From positions 16,426,245 to 16,490,244 of the forward strand of contig CM040761.1 of the NCBI GenBank assembly GCA_022829145.1: a DNA stretch of 64,000 bases. Direction: 5' to 3'. Every line of letters begins with the position of its first letter. The first letter of the stretch is position 1. The notes beneath the pieces are model-generated. The model was given only the letters and a program-made list of their open reading frames with translations. It did not search any database and had not been told where the DNA came from. The position numbers and the translations under genes are program-made. Below are positions 5,225-44,399 of the stretch, piece by piece. The DNA comes from Albula goreensis (Eukaryota > Chordata > Actinopteri > Albuliformes > Albulidae).

Positions 5225-5639
5225 ACACTTACCGCTCCCCCTGGGCAGTGCCACCCCAGACAGGGCCTCCAGTACAGAACTCTTTCCAGAGCTCTGGTCT
5301 CCAATCACTGCGATAGCCGGTAGATCCAGGTCCTTCTCCACCCCAAGGGAGCTCAGGGAGTCAATCAGGTCAATGCAGGGACGCACCTTCTCCTCATAGT
5401 GCTGATCTAGATATGAACTGCCCTTTGTATGATGAGGAAACAGGACCCACGTTAATCTCACCAGTACAGCCATAAACTCAAAGTAGAACTGAAAAAGAAC
5501 ATTCCATCCTTATTATTTTTAAGAGTAGCTGACAAATACTTACTCTTGAATTGTCTGAATTTGACCTTCGTTCCGCAGCAGTACTTTGTGCTGTCGCTCC
5601 ATTCACTTGTGTCAAGTCACTGCGCTTAGAATGTTTCAT
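1..5639 (-). CDS. mx: Mx gene 1: interferon-induced dynamin-like GTPase (3' end outside window)
   Basis: Antiviral dynamin-family GTPase of the cytoplasm (or nucleus in some fish Mx). Coding exons in order: 5544-5639, 5233-5422, 4176-4325, 3518-3672, 3141-3279, 2659-2857, 2385-2463, 1921-2043, 1669-1810, 1215-1373, 637-914, 1-61 (cut by the window edge). All junctions are GT-AG and in frame, giving about 590 residues. Visible motifs are P-loop [16 protein letters not shown] and the dynamin signature LPRGSGIVTR across the second junction. The start is an ATG at 5639 encoding a basic 32-residue leader; an acceptor just upstream implies a 5'UTR intron. The second exon could begin 66 nt earlier in frame, but the shorter form matches the paralogues. 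The 637-914 exon fuses two exons that are separate in the other four genes. This is the most divergent copy. It shows no disruption; only the carboxy terminus is missing, because of the window boundary. Confidence 0.9.
5186..5221. repeat. GT/CA microsatellite in Mx gene 1 intron 2
   Basis: About 18 uninterrupted TG units on the plus strand (CA on the coding strand), starting a few bases inside the intron after the P-loop exon. Equivalent repeats sit at the same place in Mx genes 3, 4 and 5. Confidence 0.95.
5227..5232 (-). other. 5' splice site of Mx gene 1 P-loop exon
   Basis: GTAAGT donor ending the P-loop exon. It is followed within about six bases by the intronic CA repeat (read on the coding strand), the same layout as in Mx genes 3, 4 and 5. 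Confidence 0.85.
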
Positions 5640-5912
5640 ATTGGCTGCCACACTCGTTAACTGTGTAGAAGTGAAAGTCTTGTATGTAAAGTGTAAGATT
5701 AAATCTCATACAACAGAAACACAAACAACTTTCACCCAGCCTCTTACTTAATATTTCAGGATAAATGTTCATATTCATATATAAAGTTAAAGTCCTCTTA
5801 TTATCAATATCATCTTGCCAAATAGGTGTGGCCTCACTATAGTTCCTTTATTTCTGCCATTTCATCCATATTCAATGTCTACGCATATCTTCTTGTGTAG
5901 ATATGTAATATC

Positions 5913-7282
5913 CAGGGGCGTCATGCAAGCCAAAATTCTGGGGGGCGGGTTGGCAATTACAGCGGGGGGCACAGGGTCCTTCTACACTGCTGCCACTTTT
6001 CTTGAAAAACAGCTAAATCTTGTCTGCTTCACCCAAAAATTTCAAGGGGCATAAATTCACATAAAAACACTATATCCACAATGCAAATTAATTTAGAGAA
6101 CATAGATAATAACATAGATAACTTCTCTGTCAGCCTGAATGTCTGAGAAAAACCCTATTTAGATCTTGTGAAATTCCTTACATAATGCTAATTGCTAAAA
6201 TTTGTTTTGTGGCTTTCATTTATCAAACCATTTCATTTTGTTCACTTACCACCAAACGGCTAATTGACTGCCTCTTACACAGTACTTTGACAACATTATT
6301 ATTAGCTGTTGTCATTGTCATCATGTTGTTGTTGTGAGAATCATCATTAGGCTATTCACTTATCTTTACCTGCTTCACACAGATCAGCAACTTTAACTGC
6401 CTGATCATCATCACCATTCCTTGATTGGTCTGAAATGGTCATTTGAAAGAGGCAACAAATCTTTCAGTTAAATCTGCATATATTTCCATGAAGGAAAAAC
6501 AGCCTATCACTATAAATCTCAGCTATGATAACCTACCTCTTGCACTATCAACATACTGACTGAGGACAGGGCTGAGGCTTTCTGTCGTTTTTTTAAACAA
6601 TGACGAAATTTTCCTCTGCATCTTAACCTGGAGATATGAAATGGAATTCAGTGTTTTGCTAAATATAACCTATGATAGTGGTGGTAAATACGATCAGCTA
6701 ACACAGCTTTCCTTTACCAATATTAAACAGGATGCTATGCTATCACGAGTCACGAACAGCTAGGGAGCCAGAAGGCTAAACAACCGGATTAAGGGATGGT
6801 TACTAACTTTAGCTAGCACTTGCCAACTATCTTGCAAAGCAAACTATACCTATACTTCTCAAACGCAATTAAGTGTGTACAACTAATTGCATTTCATTTT
6901 CACACATTTGAAAACGGGATTGATGCTCTACTAACCACTTCAGCAACACACAATTAAGCCGTACCCTACATTTCCACTAGTACTAATACACAACCGAATG
7001 CTGTCTGCGTCCGTACTTGCTGTTGGGAACTGATTTCATCCAGCAACTTCTGAAAGAAACCAATACCATACGGAAAAGGGGTTGTGACTTTGCGGTATGA
7101 TCTATGACATAATTAGTCAAGAATACGCTTGACTCATAATATAAAATTATAATAACTATATTATATATTCATAAAAATAATAGTAATAAAACAAAATAAA
7201 AATAAAAAAAAATCCAAATATCAAGAATCTGGTGGGGTACGTGTCCCCCCAGCCCACCCCTTGAATGGGCATGACGCGTCTG
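5913..7282 (-). mobile_element. hAT-like DNA transposon, internally deleted, in Mx gene 1 5' intron
   Basis: The ends are inverted: CAGGGGCGTCATGC at 5913 and, reading inward on the other strand from 7282, CAGACGCGTCATGC (12 of 14 match). The flanks are GTAATATC (5905-5912) and GTGATATC (7283-7290), an 8-bp duplication with one mismatch; 8 bp is the hAT hallmark. The 1.37-kb body carries a short two-exon coding remnant but is too small for a full transposase. It lies between the inferred gene 1 promoter and the first coding exon. The family name is inferred from ends and duplication length only. Confidence 0.7.
6370..6621 (-). pseudogene. Putative transposase amino-terminal remnant inside hAT-like element
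   Basis: An ATG at 6621 opens 28 codons (basic, with K/R-rich and FKK residues) ending at donor GTAGG after 6537. A second 60-nt exon, 6429-6370, continues in phase and ends at a GTAAAG donor. Both lie inside the element bounded by inverted ends. The remnant resembles the start of hAT transposase genes in placement and composition. No zinc-finger or dimerisation domain follows, so it is at best a fragment. It could alternatively be a spurious pair of spliceable segments. Confidence 0.4.
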
Positions 7283-7867
7283 GTGATATCTCCACCCCAC
7301 CACCGGGATTTTGCCACCAAATCTATCAAACTTGCAACATCCGGTAACTGAGGAGAACACCCTCCGTCAATATTTAAATGTTGGAATACAAACAAGAACA
7401 TATGAGTTGATATTTTACAAAGCATGTAGATTATAGCCATAGATGACAACAACAACAGCAGCAACAACCTACATCATCATCATTATACATGTCAGTGATA
7501 AAATGTATAGTAAATCTAACAACTCAACATGTGTATGCACAATTTGTCATTCGAAATTTCTTACACTCTAAATTCTGAAACTAACAACAGATCTAATAAA
7601 TAAAACCTTACCTCTAAGCGTATCACATTATTCGTATATGTGTTAAGAATTTAAATATACTAGAGGACTGAAACTTTTTACAGGTACATTGTCGCATATG
7701 GATACATTCGTATCAACTCAGCAAATGCGAATATAATTCACAAATTCAATGTTACACAAACGTATAGCTTTAAACTCACTGTATGTCCAGCGATTATGCA
7801 TTTGTGAAGGTATTCCACTTTGTCTGTTGAGCTCTTACGCAGACTGCACCTTAATTGAGACCAACAT

Positions 7868-7928
7868 CCCTTTAAATATACTCTTGAACAACAATGAAAC
7901 TACCGTCGGTAGGTTTCGTTTTTCAAGA
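7868..7928 (-). promoter_or_regulatory. Inferred interferon-responsive promoter of Mx gene 1
   Basis: Two ISRE-like blocks face each other: the segment 7882-7904 (contains AATGAAACT) and the segment 7908-7928 (AACGAAACC on the minus strand) form an imperfect palindrome. An AT-rich TATA-like TATATTTAAA follows at 7880-7871 on the minus strand. A plausible donor GTAAGA near 7833 would end a noncoding first exon and splice to the acceptor just upstream of the ATG at 5639. The motif type is established for Mx promoters; assigning it to gene 1 is inference from position. Confidence 0.6.
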
Positions 7929-8329
7929 ACGAAAGAGACACGCTGCGTCCCCCTTCAGTTCACGATTTACATAGACATAGATTATTTACATACTTTTTGA
8001 TTGCGAACCTATTCCTTGTATAAGCATAATTACGTACATTATATATCAGTATGTTACCCATACATTCAGTGGATTTATTTGTACCCTTGGCGAAAATGAA
8101 CAGCAAACGTTGGCTACTGAATAAATAAATTGATGCCCCAGTTTTACCGACTGTTGTAGACTCTACTGGCAAGATAAAGGCACTGAGCCTTTTCCTACAT
8201 TTCATAAGATTGAGAGGGATCTTGGACCGTTCCTGTATGCAAAACCATTTGAGGTCTGTGATGACCTTAGGTCTACACGTATGTTCTGATCTCTTAGGTT
8301 CAGCCCTCTTCCACCCTATTCCACAGCAA

Positions 8330-9110
8330 GTATGAGTGCCAGGCTTCAGTATGAACTCAAGCACAGACAGGAGTAAAATAAACCAAAGCTTACGGTAAAT
8401 AAAGGGCAGGTCCAAAAACATAGTCAAAAACAGTAGAGGCAAAACCAGAACACAGCAATCAGGGCAAAAACAGAGTGCACAAATGAAGTCAAAAAACAGG
8501 CAAAGTTCAAACCAGGCAGGAATCTAATAATAGATTTTTAAACATGGTTGATGTAACTAAATGTCAGGGCTCAGGTAGGACTCAGATGTGGATGTAAATG
8601 TTAACAGTTTTATTATCAGAAGCCAAAGTCCAAAATCCAGAAACATAGTTAAAAAACAGGCAATGGTCATAACCGGGAGTCTCAGCAAAAGCGCAAAACA
8701 CAATCCAAGAGAATGGTCAAAAGTCAGGCAGGTGAAGTTCATAAACTGGAAGGCACAGCAACGGTACAAAAACACAAGGCAAAGAATCAAAAACCAAAAA
8801 ACAAACAGGGCAACAACAGGCAGGCAGAACAGGAACAAAAGGCTCGTAGCACACACATGGACACACACACAGAAACAGAAGTAACTGAGACGAGCTCGCA
8901 ACAAACAAGAGACACAGGTGCACAACAGGGCAGGTGAAACGAATGAGTAATCACAGGGCAGGTAATAAGGTGGGCGGAGCAACACAGAATGAAAACTAAA
9001 GCACATGGACAGGGAACAGAAAACAAAAACACAGAAACAACCAAACACAACTGACAGTGAGAACAGAAACAATAAAACATATCAGACAGGAATACTGACA
9101 CTAAACTCTG
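8330..9110. repeat. Interspersed repeat of transposon style, family unknown
   Basis: A purine-biased stretch with recurring motifs such as AAACAGGCA, GGCAGG and AGTTCA. It contains two loosely similar direct segments (about 8350-8540 and 8575-8790). This composition is typical of non-autonomous DNA transposons common in fish genomes. Long open frames in it are low-complexity and show no domain. I could not fix its ends or name a family. Confidence 0.45.
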
Positions 9111-10279: not shown

Positions 10280-10671
10280 CCTTGAACAATGCAACATCCA
10301 ATCACAAATTTGATTTGACAATCATATATTACAACCATAAAATAAAGCTAATCTGAAATGAAAGGAAAAGGAGGAAATGTTTAGGTGTACATATGATGCT
10401 CAATATTTCATAACAGATAAAATATTATATAAAATTTTGTCCTAACATCTTCTATTTGTGCTGACATGAGTCCATTCTTTCTCAGTACTAAAAACAACAG
10501 ACATGTACATTATAAAAAAAAATTGTCCAAATGCAAACAATTTCAGAAAACAACATACTGTGCCATAAACTGTGATACAAAGACCATAACAAGACAGTTC
10601 ATTCAAGTGCACTGACTAAATGAATGCCTTTGGCACAGAGTATGTAATGGGTTTGGGGAAGGGCATTGAGT

Positions 10672-12416
10672 TTAGAACTTGATGAGGTAGCTGCGTGCCT
10701 GTGTCAGGCGCTTGAGGCGGCTCTGCAGACCAGCTCTCTTGGTGCCGATGTCAAAGTCTTCCTTCAGCAGCAGCTCCACGTTCTCCTTGTCCTGCAGCAT
10801 CTGCAGCATCTCCCTCTGCAGCTGCACAGCCGACTCCTGCAGTATCAGGTAGCGGATGACCAGGGGGATTTGGTCAGCCAGGCGCTGGCTTGCAATCTGG
10901 AATGGGAAGCGCACAGGGAGAGGTCATGTGACAGAATGTGGATTGAAAAGTTTGGGAATTTGAAAGTTATACTCGGAATCTGAAGGCAGATAGACCACAG
11001 GAGTTGTTGATGCATGAACTATGAACTGCTACATAACAGAATAAATGACATAATGTCAGTCTCTCTTTAGCCCATTTCAATGTGTTCTTATACTTTTGTT
11101 TTATAAGTAGCTACTGATAAGAGTGACTACATGGGTGGTAATATGACTGGATCAGAACTTGGCACATGAACAGTGCTGACTCTTCTTACCTTGTAGTAAG
11201 ACTTAAGATGGACCATCATTTCCTGCAGAGTGGCATGATTGTCTGTGCTATAGACTATGCTCCTATTTCTGAATCCATCATCTTCCATTTCATCAAGTTC
11301 CACCCTCCTAATCTCCTCCAGGTTGTAGCTGTAGGTGCTGTCCTGGGTGTAAACGATCAGCTCCATCTTGAACTGGGTTCTCAGCATGGACTCTGCTGTT
11401 GACTCCTTCTCCTGCTTGATGGCCTCCATCTTGGTCTGGGTGTCAGGAAATCAAATGGTTATGCTCCTGAACCTATGCTGAGGGCAATCTAACCCAGTGG
11501 CAGAATAGCATTTTATGGTTAGTTTAGAGTAGAGAGTGGCCGGCTACAGTCCTGGCTGGCTACGGGGTCTGAGGGCCATTCTTTTCACATGAAAACTGGC
11601 GACCTATTTAGATCAAAAAGATCAAGTAAGGTAACCAACTAATCGGGTTATCAACTGCTTAAGTTAATAAATGATGTCCTTGTAACAACGAAAACAAACA
11701 TAACCTGTGCTTCACTAGGAACAAGGTTGGCCAATCCTGGATTGGATTGTAGATATACAACTGATATTGAAGGATTTTATTGAACAATTGAAAGATGCAG
11801 TAAAGACAGAGAGAAAATAAAAACCAAGGTCAATCCAGAGTGTGTGTCTGTGTCTTTTTTATTTTGAGCAACACAATTAAACATGTACTTTATTCTCATT
11901 TTTAATATCAGCAAGAAGAGTTCTGTGCCTGAGGTACTTGTAAAGCTTAAAGATATTTAAAAAAATCACCTTTGCAGTTTTGAGGAGGTTTGGGAACCCC
12001 ATCAGGTTGTTTTGAGCCAGCTGAATGAATGCCTTCCTCACAATGTCTGTGGAAAACCAAGGAGAGAGTTATTTTCCATTTTTATCTTGTCTTTTGCAAA
12101 GTGAGTTCTGCCTGCTGTCTTGGTTTTCATCACCAGTTCAGCTGCAAAGTCACTTGGAGGAGCATACTTTGATAAATGGCACACGACACACCAGGGCAGT
12201 CAATAGTGCATGACAAGCTGAAGATCCTCTCAGCAAATATCTCTTTGAGTGATGCAACCCATATAAATAAAAAACATGTATTTCATGTGTATTTTTATTT
12301 ACATATAACTAAAGTACACTGTAAAATGTATTACTCCATTCATCTTCAAAGTCAGAAACAGTTGACTTTTTATTCAACCAAAAAGGCTGGAAAATATATG
12401 TAAATACATACAAATG

Positions 12417-12448
<32 letters not shown>

Positions 12449-15400
12449 CGTCCTGCTTGGCTGTGGGCCAGAGTTGGCACTGACATGGTCAGCATTCAAT
12501 GCCAGGAAATATGGACCAGCATACTGGGAGGATGTGCTGATTGGCAATGTGCTTAAAACTTTCTAAGTAACTATAGAAATAGGGCTGAACCACTCAACCA
12601 TTTTGACCATTTTGAAACCCTTTTGACATTTTGGTATTTGAGGATACCCTTGTGATCAGCAATGTTCACCTGTGACCTCCCTGAGCTTCTTCACAGCTGG
12701 CTCCTCCAGCAGCTTGAGCTGGTCCTTCACCAGCACCTCGAAGGTCTTGTAGTTGATGAAACCTGGAAGCTCCCTTCCACGGTATTTAACCTCGTATTCA
12801 GCCACCTCCTTCTCAATCTTCCTGTTGACTACAGAGACAGTTAACAGCACATATGAGTCTTTATTCAGGACCAACAACAGTTTTAAAAACCATTTTGTGA
12901 ATAGTACACAGTGATCCAGAAATACAGCTTCATTTCTCATTATTTACTAAAGTAGTTATTAACACACATACAGATTTGCCAGCTATTTGTGTATTTTGGC
13001 CCCTTATACATTAAGAGGCCAATGTATAAGGTGTTTATAGGTATTGTAACAAACATTACAAAAGGATTGAGGGTAGCAGACCTGCTGTAGGCTTCTCCAC
13101 CTATTGTAGAGCCAGCTACAGAAGAAATGATGCAAAGCTCTACTGGTGTTTTTTGCTATAGATAGTTCATATAACACTACTCCTACTGAATCATCATCAT
13201 CATTCTAAAACCAATATTCTTATTATCTCAATCCTGGATGAATTAATGCTATTTTATTAACTATTAAATCAAGAGGAAAATGTAACACTTACAGTTGTCT
13301 CCAGAACGGTCGAGATGTGCCTTCCACTTCCCGAACTCAGTCCTCAGCTTGGAAAAGAGGTTCAGCTTGTACCCGTTCCTCAGCTCCTCACCAATAGTCA
13401 GGTTGATGATGTCATGGGTGAACGCTGTCACTTTCTGTGGAAATATGCAGATTCTGACAGGTCAGTTCTATCCACATCACAGGCTGACAACATTAGACAC
13501 TCTGCTTTTTTTTTTAGACACTCACATCGATCAGGAAGACCATCCTCTCCGCGGGCCCATCTGGAGGCCCGGATCCATATTTCTCCAGTTCTGCCTGGGT
13601 CTCACCCAGTCTAGCCTCGATCTGCTCCTCCAGCCGAGGCAGAGATTTCTAAAGGCAGAATAACCACACCTCAACAGTCTCCTCATTTACCATAATGACA
13701 AACTGAGCACATTGTGTAAATGTTAATGTTTTACCATAGCTTTACATTCTTAAGAGACATTCTTAAGCAGCGTACAAAAAAGTGTGGTCATAATGGATAG
13801 GCCACTAGTGCAGTAGTATCACATTCAGATGATTCAAACCATTTGACATATTCAGCAAAATCAGTTATTCAGAACTTACAATTCAGTACTACAACTCAGT
13901 ATATACTAACTTTGTTCCATATTGTGGTTATTTTACCATTCTGCAAATGAAAATAAAGGCGCAAGTAATTCAGTTTAATGTACATTGGGAAGACAAAAGG
14001 AGAATATGGTACAGGTGGTAATTGGGAGAAGTGAGGGCTTGTGAATAGGAGATTGCAGGCTAGTGGTGAATGTGCCCCTTACCTCAATGTGATGCACCAG
14101 CTCCAGTGTCAGTTTCTCTGCTAGTTTTGGGATGGTGGCAAAGCCTTCATCCAGCAGGGTACTTAAGAAAAGACCACCATTATTACAAAAATGTTTGCAC
14201 TTAACAGTTTAGAGCAATACCTTAACAGTTTCATGTCACAGTATGCTAACATTGCTTCTGCTTTCAAATGTAAAAACATATCAGACCATGCTAATCTCAT
14301 TGCCTAATGCTTATACATAGCCTAGCTCATTATGTTACCATGCTCTCACACAGAGAAGGAAAGATCAACTCTCACAGGGATCATATGACCTCTGCTTTGT
14401 CTTAAGGCGATAGAGGAAAATATGAACTCAGTGTGACACAAGAGTACTTTTTTCAAAGCTTTTCAGAGAGAGGGTAATTCAGACTTCTGGCTCATGCTAG
14501 AAAGTGGATGATAACTAATATTATCCCAGACAATACTCTGAAGAAACAAAGTTTGATGTTACATTTATGAGACTGTGTTTTGTTTACTGAGTTGCCCAGA
14601 TTCTTAAATTTACAAAGGCAACTGAAAGTGAATCCTTAGCGCTGTATGACCCTCCCAGAACACACACTGCAGAACCCCATCTATGAATCTACCCTTTAGA
14701 TGCAGTAAGAATGTGGTGATAATTTTGATGTTCACCTTAGCAGGCTAATCATAGCTCTTATTGTGTAGGGCAGCCAGTTGAGGCTATGGTTTAAAATAGC
14801 AGACCTACTCTCATTACAAACACTACAATGAATTCTGAATGAACTCCAGTCTTAAGATAAGGGGGACCACTTTAATGGTGCACCTGAAGTGGGGGTGGTC
14901 CTGGAAGAAGGCCTTCTCCCTGTTGGTGGCTTCGCTCAGGGACACCTTATCTTGAATCTCCTTCTGGCCCCGGCACTTGACGAGCATGTAGCCCTTGGTC
15001 AGGTGGATGACTTCGTTATGGATGATGTCCACCACTGTCTCCTCTGTGCCCTTGTCTACCAGGTCTGGCTTTGTCAGGATACCTGCCCACATTTGTGATT
15101 ACAATTGCAGAGGTTATTTTTCATTTACTGATGCAAATTCTATCTATGTATATATCTATTGTATATATGTCTTCATGATTGGAGTGCTGCCTTTTTTATC
15201 TAATAATAGATTCATGGGTGGAGCAAGCTGTAGTCATAATACAAGATTAAACTGAAGATAAGTTAGTTTATATTGATCTCAGAAAATCAGCTGGGTGGAA
15301 CTATATCTGTAATTACAGCAATGACAGATAGTCAAATAAATGTTTTATTACCCAGAGTTCTCTCCCCATCAGGGTCCGCTATCTGTGCCATCTGTAAGGC

Positions 15401-17819
15401 CTCTGTTGTTGCTATGTCGACATTGCATGGTACCACTACCAGATTAATGGTCTCATCCTTCCTGACAAATTTATTGATCAGCCTTTTTATCTGTAAAAAC
15501 AGATCATTTGTTCACACAGCTTCTCTTATCAGCTTAGACAGAGGAAAAACCTCCTGATATAAAATGAATGTGTCACATGCACTAAAAATCATTTGCAACA
15601 GTATTTCTTTAATTGCTTTCCTTAATTGCTACACACAGTATCAGAAATTAATCACTTTGTGCATGCCATATTTGTGAGGAGGACACCACTGTTAATCTGC
15701 AAACACGGCTGATGTGGGTCCAGATGAAGTCCAGATGAAGTAGTCAGAACACTCGCCTGATCCCCAATGTTCTCAGGCTGACCCTTCACTGCGACTCTGG
15801 CGATGCCCGGCAGGTCGATGAGCGTGAGGTCAGGGACGTCGGGAGAAGAGATCTGCAAAGTGATGAGTTCATCGCTGATCCCAACACCAACTCCTGCCAT
15901 CTCGTCCTGAGCTGAAAGATAATTTTGGGGATGGGGGGTCAATAGGTTATCGTACATTGCCTTTATTAAGAGTGTTTTATCCCTAAGTGCCCAATAAAAT
16001 TTAAACATTCTGTTTTAGGGCGAGAATGCTTTATGTCTGAATGCTGTGTGTCTGTATGCCTTTCTGACTCTGGGAGTGGGGGGTTATCAAAGAGGCATAA
16101 ATACGTATTTCAGTTTCAGGGTATTCAATTCCTTGACCAATCTTATGGAATTTCAATATATCTGCTGGACAATTAATGGACAGTTAATGGCTGATTAACT
16201 ATGCCACTGGAGAAATACAGAGTCAGCATACCGGTATATTCAGTTCATGACCCAGTAGGTGCTCAGCAAGCTGGGAGAGGCCACCAGAATGTGATGATTT
16301 TAACCAGCTTACCCCTTATTTTTCCCAAATGAGGCTCAGCCACTTGTTGCCTTGCCAACATACACCTCCAGCCATAGCAGATAATGCCAGTGATGGGCAA
16401 CTGGACAACTGCACCACCGACATGTGCCTTTTCCACCATGAGCAATTGGATAGTATTTTTTTAAATTAATCAACAGAGAGGAAAGATCAGTGAGAAGTGA
16501 GCCAGTAGCCCTTACCTTCTCTGATCCATTTATCCACATCAGCTGGGTCAGTAATATCTTCCTCTTTGCCATTGAAACTGATTTTCCCATGCCAGACATC
16601 ATCTTCCTTCGTTCTCTTCATCTTCAGCTCCAGAGGACATCTTGTCACAATACCTGCAGAGAGATAAGGGATGGGGGGAGGGACAATACTGCTTTCAATG
16701 CCAAACATTCCTGTAATTTTTCAAAAAGAATTGCACAAAAACTCTTGGGGTTAAAAAGTCCATAAACTAGTCCACCTCTTCATTAAAACAGTTAAGCGCT
16801 TTTGAATAGATGTCTATGAAATGCAAATAGACAAACACAGAAAACACCTATCAACCACATTGTTGACAAAAACATAGTTTAACTGTTTAGACGCTTGTTG
16901 GCTCACAGCTGCACGGTGCCACCATTTCATTCTCTTGGATAATAAAATTTTGGCGTCAGGATAATTCAGTCATCTCATAATCTCAAAGTTGAGGCAACGT
17001 CATATTGTTCGTGTATCAAACATATGAAGCATGTAAGCAACTATGTTCGCGCAGACCGGGAATGGCAGACCGGGTAAGCGCATTACCGTGAGCGTGAATG
17101 TGTGTTGGCGAGCGTCTATGCATGCTTACCGCTTCCTCTTGGTAGCGCCACTCCAGACAAAGCCTCTAATACGGAGCTCTTTCCCGAGCTCTGGTCCCCA
17201 ATCACAGCGATAGCCGGTAAAGCCAAGTCCTTCTCCACCCCAAGGGAGCGCAGGGAGTCAATCAGGTCGATGCAGGGACGCACCTTCTCCTCATAGTGCT
17301 GGTTCAGGGTGTTGCTCATTTTATCTAGTAAATGCAATGTTAATACAGGAGGTCCTCGGGTTACGACGGTCTCGAGTTACGTCGTTTCGTGATTACGACG
17401 CACTCTCATAAATTACTTAAAAAACCTAGTTTAGACCTAGGCGGTTTGTTTCGCAAATACGACCACAGAAATAAAGATGAGAAATTGTTCTCTCTTTTTT
17501 ATTACTGTTTCATTTAATTACTGTGTTTTTATTACTGTTTCATGTGTTGTGTGTACAGTGTGAGTGACTTCAGGTGTTAATTTAGGTAAAATTTAGGTAT
17601 AAATTCCGGCTTACGTCGAAAATCGGCTTATGACAATGGCTGTTGACGTTACGAACGTTGAAACATTAACAAGTCGCCAATATTAACCACAAATATATTT
17701 CAAATGGCAAAACATCTCTTACATAAATCAATTCGAATTAAACAAAGAAATCGACAAGAATAATGCAAGTATGCCATACCTTTTTCAGATTCCAGTATCT
17801 CCAAACTGGAGTCGGCCAT
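10672..17819 (-). CDS. mx: Mx gene 2: interferon-induced dynamin-like GTPase, complete
   Basis: Thirteen coding exons: 17780-17819, 17130-17324, 16516-16653, 15757-15911, 15352-15490, 14884-15082, 14083-14161, 13526-13648, 13293-13434, 12670-12828, 11970-12046, 11190-11435, 10672-10896. Together they give 1917 nt, 638 residues, with no stop or frameshift. Domains in order: short leader, GTPase domain (P-loop GDQSSGKS near residue 47; DLPG; TKPD), bundle-signalling elements and helical stalk, hypervariable L4 loop, and a carboxy-terminal GTPase effector/stalk region ending in KF. The first exon encodes a 13-residue leader joined to the common [12 protein letters not shown] start. The intron after 15757 begins with GC instead of GT. 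A strong ISRE lies about 110 bp above the ATG. The nearest relative here is gene 3. Expected role: an interferon-induced oligomeric GTPase that restricts RNA viruses. Confidence 0.93.
12419..12447. repeat. GT microsatellite in Mx gene 2 intron
   Basis: About 14 GT units inside the intron between exons 12670-12828 and 11970-12046. It is not placed beside a splice site. Confidence 0.95.
15755..15756 (-). other. GC-type 5' splice donor in Mx gene 2
   Basis: The exon ends in GATCAG and the intron starts GCGAGT. The four paralogues have GTGAG at this site. GC-AG introns are a known functional minority class, usually with a strong surrounding consensus as seen here. Confidence 0.8.
17345..17665. 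mobile_element. Degenerate Tc1/mariner (pogo/Tigger)-like MITE in Mx gene 2 intron 1
   Basis: The left part contains CCTCGGGTTACGACGG and the right part contains GGCTTACGTCG, CGGCTTATGAC and GTTACGAACG. The repeated TTACGA/TTACGTCG theme at both ends resembles Tigger-type terminal repeats. There is no transposase. The exact ends and TA duplication could not be fixed. It lies between exon 17780-17819 and exon 17130-17324. Confidence 0.4.
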
Positions 17820-19265: not shown

Positions 19266-20434
19266 CCATCAGCTTATTATGAACTAAAACCATAGTCTTA
19301 AAACCAAAGTCGTACTTTGAGATGCTTCTTGAATATGTGCTCAGATATCACTCAAGAAAACATGAGGTTAACATACTCATCTGAACAAATTATTTAAACC
19401 ATTTGATTATTGGAAAAGTGGAATGACCACTCCCTGTGCGGTGCTCAAAGAACCACATAATGGCCAGCCTGCCAGCCTTGTTTATTTGGTATGCCTGACC
19501 CATATGAAGACAATATTCTCCACATAGGTGCTGCCCATCAGTGGGAGGATAAGATTCCACTCGTCTTTGACATTATGAAATGGAAGATGCCTTTTCAATG
19601 CCCTCCATCTGCAGTGAAATGTAGAGAATAATTTTCCATGGCAGGACACCAGAGAAATAGAGGAGAGCACTTAACAGCGGTGGTACTCCACCTCCTGAAA
19701 CCTGTCATGTGATGTAGAGCAAGGCGACAAAAGGTCTCTGGCTTTTAACGAGGGTGTCACATTTAACAGAACAGGAATGTCTGTTCTTAGTGAACATCTC
19801 ACAATGTGTCACTGTCTTAAATTATCTGATTTTTTCTTTAGATGTTCAAAAAATTTAAATACTCATGAGTATGATAATAATATGTTCTATTAACATGGCA
19901 AATATGTTCATACAGTTCAGTTGAATGCATAATAATGAAATTTCACATTTACAGTCAGAGAAAGCTGCTATTATCTATGAACAGTATTTGAAAATCTTAA
20001 AACAGCCATTAAAGTGATCAGTTGAAGTAAAACTGTATAACCTGTTAATAGTTTAACAAACAACTGAATGCAGGAGTCGTGTACTCAGTTAAACATGAAC
20101 AGTAAAACATAGGTACATTTAAATCACTGAAACAAAACAGAAAACGTAGGGCTTTAGATATAGTAACCAAAACCAGAATACTGTATGTCCAGGGTGTCAG
20201 ACTCACATTCTGAAGGGCTACAGTGGCAGTTAGTTTTTTTATCTATTTCAGCACTTATGTGATTTGGCCATTGATATAGAGATTCTGCACACCTTGCTTC
20301 CATTGTCTAATATGACTGCTGATCTAAAAATCATAAACATCTGCAGCCTTCTAGGACTTGACTCTGACATCACTGGTGTTTACACTTCATGGTACAGTAA
20401 CAGGTAACTTGACTCCTGGCCGAGATCCAGGTGT

Positions 20435-23400
20435 TTAAAACTCCAGCAGGTAGTTGTGTGCCTGTGTCAGGCGCTTGAGGCGGCTCTGCAGAGCAGCTCT
20501 CTTGGCGCCGATGTCAAAGTCTTCTTTCAGCAGCAGCTCCACGTTCTCCTTGTCCTGCAGCATCTGCAGCATCTCCCTCTGCAGCTGCGCAGCCGACTCC
20601 TGCAGTATCAGGTAGCGGATGACCAGGGGGATTTGGTCAGCCAGGCGCTGGCTTGCAATCTGGAATGGGAAGCGCACAGGGAGAGGTCATGTGACAGAAC
20701 GTTGGCAGGAAATTCTGTAGTTCCTAGTCTAGGGTGTTTGATCAGCTTGCATGAGAGAAGCTCTCTAAAATGAAAATATCTTTACAAACACCTACTCTAC
20801 ATAAACCATATTTCAGCCTGAACAGGTAGACAACCCTAAAAATGAAGACAGCAATTTGTGAAGCATTTATACATTGACATGACATTTTTACATACATAAA
20901 TTTTCATTTGGAAAATTCAAAATTTGTGATATTTTGTTGGACAGAGGACTAAATTGGCCACACCCACTCTGTAATAGGCCTTGAGGTGTGATGTCATTTC
21001 CTGCAGGGTGGCATGGTAGTCTGTGCTGTAAACCAGACTGCTTGTGTTCATCACTGCCCTCTCCGTGGCCTTGCTCTGTTTCTCCTCCTCCAGGTTGTAG
21101 CTGTAGGTGCTGTCCTGGGTGTAAACGATCAGCTCCATCTTGAACTGGGTTCTCAGCATGGACTCTGCTGTGGACTCCTTCTCCTGCTTGATGGCCTCCA
21201 GTTTGGTCTAAATGTCAGGAAGTAAAATAGTAAAATGTTACTGAACTCCTTCATCAGGGGCAATCATTCAAGGCCAAGAAGATGTTACATAAGTGTGTAC
21301 AGGTTTTTAAATAGGCAATAGGTAACTAGCCCTGGTCACAAACTTAAAACATAACTTTGTTTTTTCCTACAATTTTTCAATGTAGGAACAGACTGTTTCC
21401 CATGGCTTTGATACATGGAAGAGATTAATTAATGAAACTAATTTGTTTTCACCCTGTAAATCCTGTACCATTACATGTGCAGCACAATTAGTTTAGCATA
21501 CAATTTTAAAAATTATACCTTGGCTGTCTTCAGGAGATTTGGGTATCCTTTCAAATGGTTCTGGGCCACTTGCACAAATGCCCTTCTGACAATATCTGCC
21601 AAAGGAATATAAGTCCATTTTAATTCCAGCTTACACTACAGCGGCTCTGAATTTATATTGCTAAGCCAATATCTAGTTCTGTTGTGTAATCGCACTTTAT
21701 ACTAAGTCTTTTGTCTAAAAGATGTCATGAAACGTGCAATGTTTCCTTAATTGTTTCATGAATCATCAATGTGGAAACGGATGGCAGAACAAATGTGATG
21801 AAAAATGCTTTTCTCAATTGACAGGCCCTTGTCACAAGAAAAATTCTGAGACCAAAAGGTCCTACACACATAATGATTATACAGCTGATAAGCTATGCTA
21901 TCGCAGACAAAGCAAATGATTCATGAATTCTGCATGTATTGTGTCAGAGTAGGTGAGGTCTCCTTGGCTGATGTGCATGTGGTATTACCTGTGACCCCCT
22001 TCAGCTTCTTCACTGCGGGCTCCTCCAGTTGTTTGAGCTGGTCCTTCACCATCACCTCGAAGGTCTTGTAGTTGATGAAACCTGGAAGCTCCCTGCCACG
22101 GTAATTGGCTTCAAAGTCATCTACTTCCTCATCAATCCGCTCTTGAACTGTAAATGTAACAGTGTATAGAGAGGCCCCCACATGCACTTTAAAGGATATA
22201 ATTATTCACAAATACAGTTCAGTATGTTCTGCAAAAACCAAAATTCACTCGCAAAATGTCAATTAAAAAAAAGTACAAATGTTGATTAAATCCAGGTCCG
22301 AGTTTTAAAACATAGCACAGCACTGCCAAAACCACCCCTTCAATGTCTTACACTAATAACTACTGTAAAGAACTAGGCTCATACTCCCTTCACTAGAACC
22401 CGGCAAACTCACAGATGTCTCCAGACTGATCAAGCTGCACCTTCCACTTCCCAAACTCTGTCCTCAGGTCAGAGAAGAGGTTCAGCTTGGTCCCATCCTT
22501 CAGCTCCTCACCAATCGTCAAACTGATGATGTCCTGGGTGACCCCCTCTGTGCAAACTTCACAGAGATGTCTCACAGAGGAAATACATGTACAATCTACA
22601 CAACTGATACACCACGAAAATTAACTTATAAAAATAAATCATATGTTTGCATGTATATGAGAAATTATTTGTTTGCCTCTAGCATTTGTGTATTTGTTTT
22701 TAAAAAAATGTGTATTTTAAATCAATACACATTTTTAGCATGTGCTGTCCATACCTTCCTAGTTTCAGTGAAAATCAATTCCCTGCTTTGAAGGTGCTTG
22801 TATATAATAAACCTAGATTCTGTCTTGTGTAGGACAGACCTTTAGAGCTGGCCACTGTATCTCTGCACAACTCCCCCTTATTTACACTCACGCCACATAG
22901 TAACTTGTTGAGTGAGCAAAAGTATTCCTGAGGAACTAGGACTCACATTGATTAGGAAGTATATCCTCTCTGCAGGGTCTGTGGGAGGCCCCTCTCCATA
23001 CTTCTCCATCTCTGCCTGGGTCTCAGCCAGCTTTGCATCAATCTGCTCTTCCAGCCGAGGCAGAGATTTCTAAAGGCAATGAAAACACACCTGAGTGAAT
23101 GGTTGCCAGCCTTATGTTAATAAGAGCAAAGCTGACACTGTGGTCAGTTTATCCAAGTAAGAAAATAATGTACAGTGGAATGTAGCAGGCTGATCAGGAC
23201 TCAAACAGCTACCACAGTGACCTCTTGTGGAAGTAGTTGGTAGTTGTCATCTCCTGGATGATATTGAGGGTACTCCTTACCTCAATGTGATGCACCAGCT
23301 CCAATGTTAGTTTCTCTGCTAATTTGGGAACGGTGGCAAAGCCTTCATCCAGCAGAGTGCTGCAGAGACAAGACCAACAGATTGAAAAAAAACTGCAGGA

Positions 23401-26889: not shown

Positions 26890-26967
<78 letters not shown>

Positions 26968-27165
26968 ACACTTACCGCTCCCCCTGGGCAGTGCCACCCC
27001 AGACAGGGCCTCCAGTACAGAACTCTTTCCCGAGCTCTGGTCCCCAATCACAGCGATAGCCGGTAAAGCCAAGTCCTTCTCCACCCCAAGGGATCTCAGG
27101 GAGTCAATCAGGTCGATGCAGGGACGCACCTTCTCCTCATAGTGCTGGTTCAGGGTGTTGCTCAT
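20435..27165 (-). CDS. mx: Mx gene 3: interferon-induced dynamin-like GTPase, with two splice-site irregularities
   Basis: Twelve coding exons: 26976-27165, 26171-26308, 24695-24849, 24183-24321, 23622-23820, 23281-23359, 22947-23069, 22413-22545, 21989-22147, 21519-21595, 20968-21207, 20435-20659. They total 1857 nt, 618 residues, if both irregular sites are used. The start is the ATG of [12 protein letters not shown]; the preceding 39 nt to acceptor 27204 are open but have no ATG, and a noncoding exon ends at 27245. GTPase motifs [12 protein letters not shown] and TKPD are present. Exon 23622-23820 is preceded by TG where gene 2 has AG. Exon 22413-22545 lost bases at its 5' end, and frame is kept only by an acceptor two bases downstream (CAG|AG|). 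Either could make the gene partly or wholly defective, yet no internal stop exists. Its closest relative is gene 2. Confidence 0.85.
23821..23822 (-). other. Mutated 3' splice acceptor (TG for AG) in Mx gene 3
   Basis: The coding strand reads GGGCTG followed by GTATCC; Mx gene 2 reads GGGCAG followed by GTATCC. Exon length and frame fit only if splicing occurs at this TG. The nearest usable downstream AG would remove 18 nt, including the TKP of the GTP-binding TKPD motif. The nearest clear upstream AG adds 46 nt and shifts frame. Confidence 0.75.
24035..24057. repeat. Short CAGT tetranucleotide repeat
   Basis: About five CAGT units in the Mx gene 3 intron upstream of exon 23622-23820. Confidence 0.85.
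26898..26965. repeat. GT/CA microsatellite at Mx gene 3 P-loop-exon donor
   Basis: About 34 TG units. On the coding strand the intron reads GTAAGTGTCTCA and then CA repeats. It matches the arrangement in Mx genes 1, 4 and 5. Confidence 0.95.
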
Positions 27166-31400: not shown

Positions 31401-34400
31401 GTGAGGGCAGGGTGTGTGAGGGCAGGGTGTGCTCACGTCGATGAGGAAGGTCTTCCTCTGTTGGGGCTCCAGGGGGGGTCCCCTCTCACACTGACCCAGG
31501 TCTGTCCTGGTGTCCCACAGCTGTTTCTTAATTTGCTCTGATATGAGAGGCAGGGATTTCTGATGAGGGAAAAGAACATGGCAGTGAGACCGTGACATTT
31601 TATATGAGGTCCATGTTATTTAATGAAAGTGTTGATGAGACATTATAAACATTTATTAATGAAAAATGATTGGTCATTTTATTTTTGGTGTCCTGTCCTT
31701 ACATAAGTCAGCCTTATAACTCAACTATTATACATTTCTTTTGAATGTGCACTGAAAACCACTTATTTGTATGATATCGTCTGCTTCATAGTATATATTA
31801 CAGCAGGAATATGAAGGCAATCAAGTGATCTGTTAAGCGTTTTTGCTAGGTAATTTTTATTTAGTCAATATTTGTCCATAACTTTGACTCACTAACAAAT
31901 CCAAGAATATTTTTCCAAAAACCCAGTTCAATGAAGGCTAAGCACAAATTTAACTCACCTTGATGTGGTCCACCAGGTCCTGTGTCAGCTTTGTAGCAAG
32001 ACATTGTGTTGTCGCTTTCTCCTCATAAAGAAGAGAACTGGAAAAAGTCGTATTTTGTAAAACTTAGCACATCATCCAATACTGTGGATATCTTTTTATT
32101 TCTGTCTATATCTGAACAAACCCAACATACAATGCTCAATCTTCAGCATTCAGGATGACTTCTCAAAATTCATCATCTTTGCTTATGGAGATGAATACCA
32201 AAAATGCAGTGCTGTACTGTTTAATCTCAGGGAAGTGCTGTTTTTTTAACATACCTGAAGTACTCATGGCGTCTAAAGAAATCCCTCTCTATCTTTGTGG
32301 CATCAGAGAGGGAGATTCTATCATTTATCTGCTTCTGGCCGCGACATTTCACGATGATGTAGCCCTTGCTGAGTGGTATCACTTGGTTTCGGACGATGTC
32401 TAGAACATTCTTTTCGGTCCCTTTGTCAACCAGGTCCGGCTTGGTCAGAATGGCTTTTTAGAGCAACAGACAAAATTTGCATGACGTAACTTGCTCATAT
32501 TTTAATATTAACTTGAGTCAGTCACTGATATTTCATAGACACTTTCTGCTAGAACAAAGTAAAGGACACCATGGCACAGTGATATTTTCGTGATTCCCGC
32601 ATTGAGGTGTTGATCTGTACCAATCATGAAGACCCCAAAGAGAAAGCAAGATTCTGCAAATATTCTGAATCATGAATCAGAGCTCTGTGAATGATGAGGC
32701 TGTCCTGCAAATGGAGAAATGTGGTCGCTGAACTTTTTTACCCAGAGTTCTTTTGCCCTCAGGATCCGCTTCCTGTGCCATCCTCAATGCTTCAGTTGTT
32801 GCTATGTCAACATTGCATGGAACCACTACCAATATAATGGTTTCGTTCTTCTCAATAAAATTCAGGATGAGATTTTTTATCTGCAAAGAAAACCATATCA
32901 TTTACAGTTAGCTTTTCTTTCAAATCAGAGAGGACTGTTTTCTTAAAACCGTACACATATTTTACAAAACCATTCCAGATATCTCATTCCAGATCTCATA
33001 ATATAGTAAATAACAGAAACTATTCATTTTTATTTTCTTAACAGTGATTATGCCTATGCATTCTCAGTTTATTTCAATACTTCTTAATACTACTATGGTA
33101 CTTAAGTTTTTCTTCAATGGTGCATGGTACAGCATTCTGAGTTTGCCTGTTGGTTTGACTGAGAAAAATTCCTGGGGAATCCTCCCCATTTTAGGAAACC
33201 AGGAAGGAACTTTACACTCTATGATTCTACACTCACCTGTTCCCCAATGTCCTCTGGCTGGCCTTTTACAGGGACCCTGGCGATCCCGGGGAGATCGATG
33301 AGGGTGAGGTCACATACATCTGGTGCACTGATCTCCAGAGTGATCAGCTCATCACAGATCCCTACCCCTTCCCCTGCCAGCTCATTCTGGGCTGTGAACA
33401 AAGCATCATATTTTTATGGTTTTATTTGATGGATCATACAACAGACCATCAAACTAAACATGAATTTGTTGCATGACACTGCAAAAGGTACCATATTTGA
33501 ACATACTACCATTTAAGCTACACAAAGAAGGGGTAGTTCACAGAATATGCTTTTGCATTAAGAGGGTAATAGGCTCAGGGAAATTTTTAAACTTTTAAAG
33601 GGAAGGGAAGTAGAACTAAACTGGTTTGCCACAGCTTCATTCAACCTAAATAATGCAGAAAGGAGCCAAAAACTCTCATTCAATAATAAGAGGAAGAAGA
33701 ACAAAAACAATAGCTAGGGCATACATGAAAGAGTTTAAAATTAAACAAATCTGCGGACAGAATTAATCAGAACCACTTCCTGTCTGGATTTTGTTTAACA
33801 GAATAATGAAGAATGACATTTGGAAATTTGCCTATTTACTCAAGGTGAACCTTAGAAGTGGGAAATGAAAGTTGCAGTGGCCTTAGAGGCCATCACAGGG
33901 AAAGTACCGGCTAAGAGGGCTGGTGTACAGCACGTGCTCTCAGGGAAAGGTGCAAATTCAGGGAGACTTTTTTCTCCACTTCCTCACACTAATGTGACCA
34001 TCATACTGAAGAACTCTTTTAGATGTAGACTCTTTAATGACATGCTAAACGGCTCACTGTGATGATTAAAGAGACCAAAGCAATTTCTGACAGAGTATGG
34101 ATGTCAGAGTATGGATCCTGGTGTTCCTTCATCTAACTGGCAATGGAAAAAGCTTTGCTATCCTTTGTCACTTCGATCCCCCAGGTCAAAAGTGCAAATG
34201 TGAATTTTGCTATAATTTCACTTATCTGGTCAAATGAAGGTGAGACAAAAATAGCAGTAACCTTTAGCCACATAGCCCTCCACCAGTGATGGGTCATCAA
34301 ACTGGATGAACTCATCCTTGTAGGAGATAACTGCCCTCCACTGGATCCCTCCTCTCAGCTTCCTCAGCTTCAGTTCCAGGGGACACCGTGTGACAATTCC

Positions 34401-34487: not shown

Positions 34488-34522
34488 CTCTGCTGTGTAA
34501 TATGTTGTGAGTTTGGGTGTGT

Positions 34523-34569
<47 letters not shown>

Positions 34570-35012
34570 TGACTTACCGCTCCCCCTGGGCAGTGCCACC
34601 CCAGACAGGGCCTCCAGTACAGAACTCTTTCCCGAGCTCTGGTCCCCAATCACAGCGATGGCCGGTAGAGCCAAGTCCTTCTCGATGCCGATGACCCTCA
34701 GAGAGTCGATCAGGTCGATGTAAGGCCGCACCCTTTCATCCAGGTGGCTGTGGAAAACTCCTTCCATTGGTTGACTGACATGGCGAGAAAGAAACAGGAA
34801 CATAATGAACACATGATTTACTGAAACTGAAATGACATGATAAGAGAAATGACAAATGAACAGTACTCTTACAATGGCAGCAATAACTGCGGACTAGGAA
34901 AACGTTAGCTTTCTTGTAATGATTTGTAAGAAGGAGAAAGAAACACCCCTCACCTTTCTTCAATTTCAAGTGCAGTACTGACATCTTCAGTGCTGTCTGT
35001 GGGACTATCCAT
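28493..35012 (-). CDS. mx: Mx gene 4: Mx-family dynamin-like GTPase (second subfamily), complete
   Basis: Thirteen coding exons: 34954-35012, 34578-34774, 34262-34399, 33237-33391, 32742-32880, 32255-32453, 31959-32037, 31437-31559, 30768-30900, 30136-30294, 29782-29858, 28963-29178, 28493-28717. They total 1899 nt, 632 residues, all phases consistent. The acidic leader [12 protein letters not shown] is followed by a GTPase domain with [12 protein letters not shown] and TKPD, the stalk, an L4 loop quite unlike genes 2 and 3, and a carboxy end in FF. The stalk segment reads [14 protein letters not shown] where genes 2 and 3 have [14 protein letters not shown]. Gene 5 shares this style, so 4 and 5 form a separate subfamily. 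The donor GTTACT after 34262 is weak. Expected role: an antiviral GTPase, perhaps with different targets or induction. Confidence 0.92.
31258..31432. repeat. G-rich minisatellite in Mx gene 4 intron
   Basis: About ten imperfect copies of a 15-18-bp unit (GTGTGTGAGGGCAGGG type). It ends within five bases of the GTGAGC donor of exon 31437-31559. Open reading frames across it are only repeat artefacts. Confidence 0.9.
34445..34486. repeat. Compound TG/AG microsatellite in Mx gene 4 intron 2
   Basis: About nine TG units followed by about eleven AG units, separate from the longer TG tract next to the donor. Confidence 0.9.
34518..34566. repeat. GT/CA microsatellite at Mx gene 4 P-loop-exon donor
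   Basis: About 24 TG units with one interruption, lying 7 bp inside the intron. The coding strand reads GTAAGTCACACC and then CA repeats. Confidence 0.95.
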
Positions 35013-35501: not shown

Positions 35502-35575
35502 GTGTGATTTGGGAAGTGATGGTTGAGAGCCTGTGTCTTTCAGTGACAGGGAGAGGAAGGTGAGAGTTTTATACT
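35502..35575 (-). promoter_or_regulatory. Inferred core promoter and noncoding exon of Mx gene 4
   Basis: TATAAAA on the minus strand (35567-35573). A candidate 5'UTR exon then ends at CACACG with a GTAAGT donor after 35502, which could splice to an acceptor above the ATG at 35012. I saw GAAACT half-sites near 35620 but no full GAAANNGAAA. Confidence 0.5.
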
Positions 35576-35579
35576 GAGA

Positions 35580-41200: not shown

Positions 41201-44123
41201 TTATGTGGAGTTTTTAAATTTATTAAAATGCACCATTAAAATGTAACTTTCAGGTTTGTACCCTTAGGGTCCACATTCCTATCTTAAGCTATTGTACTTG
41301 TGTACTTCACATTGATTCTGAAATATCTGCAGTCTGCATGCACACACTTGAAAATGATGGGCTGCTCTATTTTGGGTCAGTAGAGGGACCAGAATGTGGG
41401 AGTATAACTTATGGGTTGAACGGTTTGTTTTCATTGGTATGTATTTTTATACACTCGATTCAGGTTTGGTTCTCAGGGTCTACTAAAGTGACATTGCATT
41501 GTTTCTTGTTAAATTCTTCATAAAGTCTTACTTTGATTTGATCCACTAGTTCTTCAGTCAGTTTGCTGGCAAGACACTGTGTTGTAGCCTTCTCCTCTCT
41601 GAGAAGATACCTGACATGATAATGGATACTATGGTTAGATAAAATAATTATTCCTCTGCAGATACATTTTCCTCTATTTATTTTTTTTAACACGTGTGCA
41701 CATTTAAAAGGTGCTGCTTAATGTCCCTCAATAAGGTCATACTTGAAGAACTCATGTTGCTCGAAGAATTCTCTCTCCATTAGCGTGACTTCAGCCAGTG
41801 AAACTCTCTCATCAATTTGCCTCTGACCTCGGCATTTCACCAGCAGGTAGCCCTTTCTGAGTGGAATTACTTGATTTCGCACCACGGCTAAAATAGATTG
41901 CTCTGTTCCTCTGTCAACCAGGTCCGGCTTTGTTAGAATTCCTAAGAAGCGAAAAACAAACAAAAAAAAGAACATAAAGATGTTTTATTGTGTAAACTGT
42001 GTCATATTGTAGATTGGAGCACTCTGTGGACTCGCTTAGGTTAAAATTCAGAATGAGGTATTGAGCTCTCTTAAATGTATTGCCATTGAGTATTTTATTT
42101 TCAAGTCTAATGCTATGGCCTGACAAAAATATAACAATATAAGTCATAATCATTTAAAAAAGAAGTACTTCTGTGGTAGTTTTGTACATTATTTCTTCAT
42201 CTCCTCAGGTAAATGCTTACTCTGAGCTATTTTTGGCACAGTGCTTCGTCTGAACTAGTGTGGTGCTTTTTCTGAGGTTGTTTTTACCCAGAGTCCTTTT
42301 CCCCACAGGATCCACCTCCTTTGCCATCTTCAAAGCTTCTGTTGTTGCTATGTCAATGTTGCATGGAACCACAACCAAAATTATAGTCTCATTTCTCCTA
42401 ATGAATTGGGTTATCAGATGCTTAGTCTATCAAAAAATAAAAATAAATCAAAAGATTAGTCCTACCCTTGACCATGAGACTGTCTTGTTTTTCCACTTTG
42501 GTTCGACCATTTCTGCTGCTTCTCAGCCCTTCTTCTCTACCATTCTCCTTTGCCTTCTACTTGACCACTTCAGAGAGATGATCAGAGAGATATAGGCAGC
42601 TCTTTCCATAAATCACTGACCTCCCTTTGCTCCTCTGTTCTGCACTTTCATTGAACCCACCAAAGTCCTTATTTCTCCCAACTTCCCTCCTTTTACAGCT
42701 GATGATATATCTCAGCTACCAACGTCCCACTGCCTAACCACCTGTGGCCTGGATCACATGTGCTGTCCTTACTCATCGAACATCACAGTGGACATACCCC
42801 CATTCACCTCCATGATCAACCCATCACTATCCCTGTCCCCAGCCATCATGAGGTCCTGCTCTGGTCCCCATTACCATTCAGAGTGACCAACCAGTCTTTC
42901 CTCTTCCCATTCTAACAAAAAATATGTTGATGATACTAAGCTTTTCCTCTTTTCCTACATCTGATATTCAGGTATAACAATGCATCTCATCTTGCCTGAG
43001 GCAGATCATGCTGGATGGTGGATCATTGCCTGTCTTGCTCAACTTAGGATAGGACAGAGGACAGTGATGATGCTCTACATCCTCCCCAAGTCCTGCCAAA
43101 CCATCCCTTCCTATTGAAGAAGCCTTGGGGTGAACCCAGATGACAGTGGAGTCACAATGAGTCAGGCCTGCAGATAATGTCAATCTAATGTATGAAGAAT
43201 CCACCACTTCCTCACCACATACATCACTCAGATCCTGGCCCAAGCCCTGGTACTGTAACATCTAGACAACTGTATCTACATTTTTGTTGGTCTCAGCAGA
43301 AGCTCACCTGTTCGCCTATGTTCTCAGGCTGATCTCCTACAGGGACCCTGGCGATCCCGGGGAGATCGATGAGGGTGAGGTCACACACATCTGGTGAGCT
43401 GATCTCCAGAGTGATCAGCTCTTCACAGATCCCTACCCCTTCCCCTGCCAGTGCATTCTGGGCTGTGAACAAAAGTGAAAAAGAAACATCACATTTCAGA
43501 TCATCCATTCCTGCTTCCTTTTAGCAGAATGTCATTCTGTTAGGTTAAAAAGTAACTGCTCTATTCTTCTCTTTAACTACTCTAATCTTTACAACGGGCA
43601 ATTACCTGTTCCAGAAAAAGCTTACCCACCATTTATGATGTGCTTCTCTACCTGTGAAGGATCATGAATGTCAATGCCATCGGTGTCCTTGTAGGAGATC
43701 CTTGCTTTCCACTGTTCCCCTACTCTAAGTGACCGGAGTCTCAGCTGCAGTGGACAGCGAGTTACAATTCCTGAGGAAACAAAAAGTCCGACCTCTATGG
43801 AGCACAATAAAGGTAACATAAAATAGGTGGATACTCTGTGCACTTAAGCATAGAGCATTTAATGAACAATAGGGTTGTGTGTTAGGGCTTTTGAAGGGCA
43901 AACTGGATAGTGTTTGTGCCTGAGTATCTATGTGTGGTTGTTATGTCCATGTTTAAGTATGTGTGTGCATTGTATCTGTTTATGTGTGGACTGTATGTGT
44001 GGTAATATGTAAATGCATGTTCTGTCTGTGTGCATTTAAACTTGTGTACATGTACGTTTATGGGAGAATCTACCTGTGCGTAAATGTTTTTCTGTGTGTT
44101 TTTGATGTTGGTGTGTGTGTGTC

Positions 44124-44202
<79 letters not shown>

Positions 44203-44399
44203 CACTTACCGCTCCCCCTGGGCAGTGCCACCCCAGACAGGGCCTCCAGTACAGAACTCTTTCCCGAGCTCTGGTCTCCAATCACAGCGATGGCCGGTAA
44301 AGCCAAGTCCTCCTCCACCCCAAAGGAGCGTAGAGAGTCAATCAGGTCGATGCAGGGACGCACCTTGTCATCTAGGTGTTTGTGGAACACTCCCTGCAT
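38278..44399 (-). CDS. mx: Mx gene 5: Mx-family dynamin-like GTPase (second subfamily), complete
   Basis: Twelve coding exons: 44210-44399, 43630-43770, 43308-43462, 42288-42426, 41743-41941, 41532-41610, 40939-41061, 40632-40764, 40039-40197, 39841-39917, 38976-39161, 38278-38502. They total 1806 nt, 601 residues, uninterrupted. The start is the ATG of [16 protein letters not shown]. An acceptor lies 9 nt upstream, and a candidate 5'UTR exon ends at 45187. GTPase motifs [12 protein letters not shown] and TKPD are intact. The L4-bearing exon is the shortest among the full copies (186 nt, against 216-246). The protein ends in FF, as in gene 4. The intron after 43308 contains an L2-like LINE fragment on the opposite strand. 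Confidence 0.92.
40805..40895 (+). mobile_element. Possible tRNA-derived SINE fragment
   Basis: GTGGCCTGTAGTCTAGTAGC resembles a pol III A box, and GGTTTAAGCCC about 45 bp on resembles a B box. It lies in the Mx gene 5 intron near exon 40939-41061. There is no tail or target duplication that I could fix. Confidence 0.4.
42595..43300 (+). mobile_element. Degenerate L2-like LINE reverse-transcriptase fragment
   Basis: Reading the plus strand gives Y-V-D-D followed by T-K-L-F-L (about 42920-42955), the catalytic core of LINE reverse transcriptase. LGVNPDDS (about 43125), then [14 protein letters not shown] (about 43205-43250) and a degenerate LDYCNSLLVGL-like tail follow. These are the conserved landmarks of L2/CR1-type LINEs, broken by stops and frameshifts. 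It lies antisense in the Mx gene 5 intron and reaches almost to the donor at 43307. Confidence 0.7.
44109..44201. repeat. GT/CA microsatellite at Mx gene 5 P-loop-exon donor
   Basis: More than 40 TG units with minor interruptions. The coding strand reads GTAAGTGT and then CA repeats, as in Mx genes 1, 3 and 4. Confidence 0.95.

Follow-up and report, generated by a model that had tools for sequence, protein, structure and literature searches.

Probable interlocus gene conversion at the P-loop exon of divergent tandem Mx genes in Albula goreensis

Five genes of Mx, a family of antiviral, interferon-induced GTPases related to dynamin, lie in tandem, all on the minus strand, within the stretch of Albula goreensis DNA analysed here (the window, 64,000 nt), and four of them, genes 1, 3, 4 and 5, share the end of their P-loop exon, which codes for part of the GTP-binding site, almost base for base. 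This identity is very probably the product of interlocus gene conversion among the tandem same-strand genes, which we consider its best explanation on the strength of the sequence comparisons below. Gene conversion was the cause put forward in the original prediction, and it is supported by a silent divergence (pS) of 0.00 in the shared patch versus 0.55-0.77 in ten other exons. The genes are:

Gene 1: 5425 to past the window start, minus strand, about 12 coding exons
Gene 2: 17322-10675, minus strand, about 12 coding exons
Gene 3: 27168-20438, minus strand, about 12 coding exons
Gene 4: 34767-28499, minus strand, about 12 coding exons
Gene 5: 44402-38281, minus strand, about 12 coding exons

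Pfam domains above cut-off were found in gene 3 (PF00350, Dynamin_N, with the P-loop) and in gene 2 (PF01031, Dynamin_M, and PF02212, GED), and the remaining genes align exon by exon with these two. Compared with solved protein chains, the P-loop exon of gene 2 matched Mx1/Mx2 at 6.3e-30 to 1.3e-11 and dynamin-1 at 3.2e-07 at best, which places gene 2 nearer to Mx than to dynamin. A DNA search of the genome (931,924,363 bases, 208 contigs) with the P-loop exon returned at least eight places, namely the five of the cluster and three more Mx genes, C5a, C5b and C5c, which are unlinked to it and lie at 212-261 kb of contig C5. The tree over the ten other exons (2-9, 11 and 12, with exon 10 left out and gene 1 lacking exon 12) was (g1,(g2,g3),((g4,g5),C5 genes)), with a support of 94 for genes 2 and 3, 100 for genes 4 and 5 with the C5 genes, and merely 60 for genes 4 and 5. 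The cluster genes represent three deep lineages, and their earlier assignment to different subfamilies was correct.

Some structural features of the region were also recorded. In gene 1, exon 10 runs in-frame into exon 11 (906-616, minus strand) and the intron of genes 2-5 is absent. Gene 3 has TG at the exon 5 acceptor (23822-23821, minus strand) versus AG in gene 2, which is either a lost splice site or an assembly base error, and exon 3 of gene 2 is followed by GCGAGT (15756-15751, minus strand), a possible GC-AG intron. A minisatellite of 15-16 bp units occupies 31259-31431 directly after the exon 7 donor of gene 4. A second tandem pair (46221-51145 and 55857-61709) adjoins the Mx cluster, with five blocks 75-96% alike and one exon that matches hemopexin (PF00045, 3.9e-07).

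The P-loop exons, which gave 57 whole codons for alignment, are located as follows:

5233..5404, minus strand, P-loop exon of gene 1 (57 whole codons aligned plus a split base; patch 5233-5299)
17130..17301, minus strand, P-loop exon of gene 2 (last 67 bases 17196-17130)
26976..27147, minus strand, P-loop exon of gene 3 (mosaic; last 67 bases 27042-26976)
34578..34749, minus strand, P-loop exon of gene 4 (last 67 bases 34644-34578)
44210..44381, minus strand, P-loop exon of gene 5 (last 67 bases 44276-44210)

Over the final 67 exon bases genes 3, 4 and 5 have zero differences, gene 1 differs from them at 1/67, and gene 2 differs at 12/67, every one of them silent. The coordinates and difference counts first reported for this exon were therefore accurate in the 67-base comparison of the five genes, both for the near-identity over about 65 nt of genes 3, 4 and 5 with gene 1 one base off and for the more than ten, mostly silent, differences of gene 2. 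An uninterrupted stretch of 55 exon and 6 intron bases is common to genes 1, 3, 4 and 5, and genes 3 and 4 are alike over the final 82 exon bases. The protein over the patch is fully identical in all eight genes, five in the cluster and three on C5. The C5 genes have 8 silent differences from the patch (counted for C5a, read off the sequence for C5b and C5c), even though they group with genes 4 and 5. After the patch, gene 2 and the C5 genes have the donor GTAAG or GTAGG. With regard to GC-biased conversion, the patch is apparently richer in silent-site G+C than gene 2, but by reading not richer than the C5 genes.

Silent divergence was calculated as Nei-Gojobori proportions, with the patch defined as codons 41-57 of the 57 aligned (15 synonymous sites). 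Patch pS was 0.00 in 6/6 pairs among genes 1, 3, 4 and 5, while in the ten other exons, where silent divergence is saturated, the six pairs gave 0.66, 0.70, 0.77, 0.66, 0.69 and 0.55. The patch of gene 2 stood at 0.84 from each of genes 1, 3, 4 and 5, and that of C5a at 0.53 from genes 3, 4 and 5. Equal synonymous divergence in neighbouring exons had been named as the observation that would speak against conversion, and the neighbouring exon 2 showed instead a pS of 0.53-0.77 in the six pairs. With zero changes at 15 sites in four lineages, a star-like model bounds the age of the patch at no more than 0.05 substitutions per site per lineage (95%), about one tenth of the value of about 0.5 for genes 4 and 5 (half of their dS of 0.99).

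Chance retention was assessed on codons with the same amino acid in all genes present. Such codons are identical in genes 1, 3, 4 and 5 at 17/17 positions in the patch and at 32/127 outside the exon, where the longest run is 3; a run of 17 arose in 0/200,000 permutations of the pooled codons. Simulations with branch lengths fitted outside the P-loop exon produced 0/20,000 invariant 51-nt windows, with a minimum of 4 variable sites and a mean of 14.1, and pairwise Fisher tests ranged from 8.7e-7 to 7.3e-4. The GENECONV-type check suggested at the outset was carried out as a run test (20,000 permutations, Bonferroni over 28 pairs) and succeeded in part, as 4/6 pairs remained significant (genes 1 and 4 at 0.024; genes 1 and 5, 3 and 4, and 3 and 5 at 0.0014), but genes 1 and 3 (0.20) and genes 4 and 5 (0.074) missed the corrected threshold. 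When restricted to the 51-nt patch, an AU test rejected none of three trees, and it kept the rest-of-gene topology (p 0.35) because zero-length branches fit the patch. The signal of the patch is in branch lengths rather than in topology.

The exon of gene 3 is gene-2-like to about position 27025 and from there identical to genes 1, 4 and 5. Same-amino-acid codons of genes 2 and 3 are alike at 118/148 positions outside the exon and 25/25 in its first 40 codons, but at 6/17 in the patch, a drop with a Fisher probability of 0.00027. Gene 3 is thus a mosaic whose nearest relative switches within the exon. Two histories would give this pattern: conversion replaced gene 3 from roughly the P-loop codons onward, or gene 2 was the one copy to be spared or took its sequence from an unsampled copy. 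Genes 2 and 3 are identical at silent sites in codons 27-40 and have a pS of 0.06 in codons 1-26, so that gene 2, initially presented as the exception to homogenisation, is one in the last 17 codons, whereas the rest of its exon is near-identical to gene 3 at silent sites.

Codons 1-26 may carry an older layer of conversion. In this segment gene 1 stands at a pS of 0.11 from genes 2 and 3 and shares 96% of its amino acids with them, compared with 0.66-0.67 and 51-53% elsewhere, and gene 5 has a pS of 0.21 and 0.27 to genes 2 and 3 and of 0.47 to gene 4 (uncorrected Fisher p 0.003, 0.003, 0.038 and 0.019). AU tests rejected a clade of genes 1, 3, 4 and 5 for codons 1-26 (p 0.044) and kept it for codons 27-40 (p 0.076). 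This layer is less certain than the patch because its Fisher values, 0.003-0.038, are uncorrected.

Further putative conversion tracts were detected within the subfamilies:

14722..15095, minus strand, exon 5 of gene 2 with the first part of intron 5; 93% identity with gene 3
23460..23833, minus strand, matching exon 5/intron 5 tract of gene 3, paired with gene 2 14722..15095
10670..10939, minus strand, final (GED) exon of gene 2 with the last part of intron 11; 95.6% identity with gene 3
20433..20702, minus strand, matching exon 12 tract of gene 3, paired with gene 2 10670..10939
33232..33402, minus strand, exon 3 of gene 4; 91.8% identity with gene 5 43303-43473

Genes 2 and 3 match at 177/180 aligned positions in a tract that covers the end of exon 5 and about 160 nt of intron 5. 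They also match at 40/40 positions at the end of intron 11, just ahead of exon 12, which has a pS of 0.07 versus 0.34 over ten exons. Both tracts stop abruptly, and their entry into introns is as predicted for conversion. Exon 3 of genes 4 and 5, with a pS of 0.19 versus 0.55 and a likeness that fades toward the exon ends, was probably converted as well. These tracts suggest that conversion is general in the cluster. The expectation that excess identity would be confined to the P-loop exon therefore held only for exchange between subfamilies, since the P-loop exon is the only place in the cluster where cross-subfamily conversion was found, but exons 3, 5 and 12 also show tracts. On contig C5, two Mx genes in opposite orientation (C5:232733-261384) show no silent difference over a run of 159 codons with the same amino acid, from exon 2 to exon 6; the run exceeds the expectation from the rest and is likely a conversion tract. 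Homogenisation specific to exon 1 among the C5 genes was considered but is not claimed, as pS was 0-0.07 per segment but 0-0.19 in exons 2-5 too.

Outside the P-loop exon, no likeness was found among the five genes upstream of the ATG or beyond a (CA)n array that follows the exon in four of them. The intron bases shared across subfamilies at this exon number 6-9, plus the array, and intronic support for conversion there is thin because the introns past the array and the sequence 5' of the ATG differ. The arrays are:

5186..5222, gene 1, (GT)n/(CA)n array, beginning 11 nt past the P-loop exon
26898..26965, gene 3, (TG)n/(CA)n array, beginning 11 nt past the P-loop exon
34506..34571, gene 4, interrupted (TG)n/(CA)n array, beginning 7 nt past the P-loop exon
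44111..44201, gene 5, (GT)n/(CA)n array, beginning 9 nt past the P-loop exon

TRF detected no (CA)n array after the P-loop exon donor of gene 2, and the sole further GT array in its list for positions 1-46000 is at 12420-12448. All three C5 genes have CA-rich minisatellites 17-28 nt past the same exon.

The patch could owe its identity to purifying selection on silent sites, maintaining codon usage, an RNA structure or an enhancer of splicing without any copying. It does sit at a splice donor, its protein is completely identical in all eight genes, and CA repeats after donors are known to affect splicing. However, the same 17 codons encode the same protein with 12 silent changes in gene 2 and 8 in the C5 genes, and comparably invariant codons in other exons were not kept (32/127). 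The C5 genes, lacking patch identity by those 8 silent sites, make codon constraint an unlikely cause, and no Rfam family reached its gathering score on either strand of the window. We consider selection of this kind very unlikely to account for the patch. The evidence comes from the assembly of a single genome, which leaves a slight chance of an assembly error.

Two other ways of moving sequence were weighed against gene conversion. A single exon could have been spread among tandem genes on the same strand if it was duplicated recently or shuffled through unequal crossing-over, and the high similarity over the whole exon would agree with this. The identity, however, stops inside the exon at a codon that depends on the pair (55, 67 or 82 exon bases), and both exon flanks are unlike in the five genes, although a single crossover would leave one flank alike; this origin is extremely improbable. 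Much the same can be said of copying through a reverse-transcribed messenger instead of DNA. The missing intron between exons 10 and 11 of gene 1 is in its favour and suggests that cDNA did recombine into the cluster once, but the tract crosses the donor into 6-9 intron bases and the other patches extend into about 160 and 40, and spliced cDNA is intronless. There is very little chance that the patch arose by this route.

With interlocus gene conversion as the preferred explanation, at least five tandem same-strand Mx genes would exchange sequence, and the exon with the start of the bundle signalling element (BSE) and the P-loop would be where conversion crosses subfamily borders. We infer short, repeated and overlapping non-crossover copying during the repair of breaks between misaligned copies. 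The older events would span more of the exon in genes 1, 2, 3 and 5, and the latest would take in the final 17 codons in genes 1, 3, 4 and 5 and skip gene 2. From codon 32 onward the amino-acid sequence does not vary, which may leave the DNA homologous enough for strand exchange to begin, and a tract whose copying alters no amino acid would escape removal by selection.

The CA arrays might add to the conversion explanation if they initiate breaks or strand exchange, which would make the exon a true hotspot beyond mere tolerance. Arrays lie 7-11 nt past the exon in 4/4 homogenised genes and are missing from gene 2, CA-rich minisatellites lie near the same exon in 3/3 C5 genes, and long di-nucleotide arrays occur at about double frequency in the hot intergenic regions of yeast (PMC2267716). 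Against this, the link rests on five non-independent genes of one genome, the array could have travelled along when the exon was copied or could be old and lost from gene 2, the TRF list shows no array adjoining the tracts of exons 3, 5 and 12, and exon 1 pS in the C5 genes is not clearly below that of exons 2-5. An initiating role is possible but rather unlikely, and the array is a speculative candidate only.

Recurrent gene conversion of the BSE/P-loop exon has been described for mammalian MxA/MxB (Mitchell et al. 2015, PMC4687636). The two systems share the family, the BSE/P-loop region, nearby paralogues, a homogenised catalytic part with divergence elsewhere, and tracts that can enter introns. 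Unlike the mammals with their two genes, the Albula cluster has five in tandem, which belong to three deep lineages. Four of them share a patch of 55-67 exon bases that is silent versus gene 2 and omits one gene, and a CA-repeat array lies beside the exon; detection relied here on one genome and there on many species with GARD (PMC4687636). The same paper describes rodent Mx2 as completely converted by Mx1 (PMC4687636), which is likewise interlocus conversion in Mx but covers most of the gene rather than short patches. The Albula cluster is an independent case of the same kind as the mammalian MxA/MxB conversion. Conversion in fish Mx was not found in the open-access literature, searched by titles and abstract starts among the matches listed. 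The expansion of the Mx family in trout has reportedly been the subject of a study.

Our results bear on why this exon is converted, for which Mitchell et al. 2015 offer a hotspot, tolerance or selected escape from viral antagonists, undecided (PMC4687636). The latest tract is silent versus gene 2 and so was not favoured through the protein, which speaks against selected escape here and argues for tolerance or a hotspot. Fish Mx genes can be wrongly placed by N-terminal Mx trees or by P-loop amplicons from conserved primers. Whether the exon is a hotspot becomes testable now that a distant vertebrate provides a second, independent instance at the same exon. It is conceivable, though we hold it doubtful, that the Mx P-loop exon is a vertebrate-wide conversion hotspot sustained by its own invariance and, here, by the CA-rich repeat, in which case Mx would consist of a shared and continually recopied catalytic exon joined to freely diverging antiviral parts.
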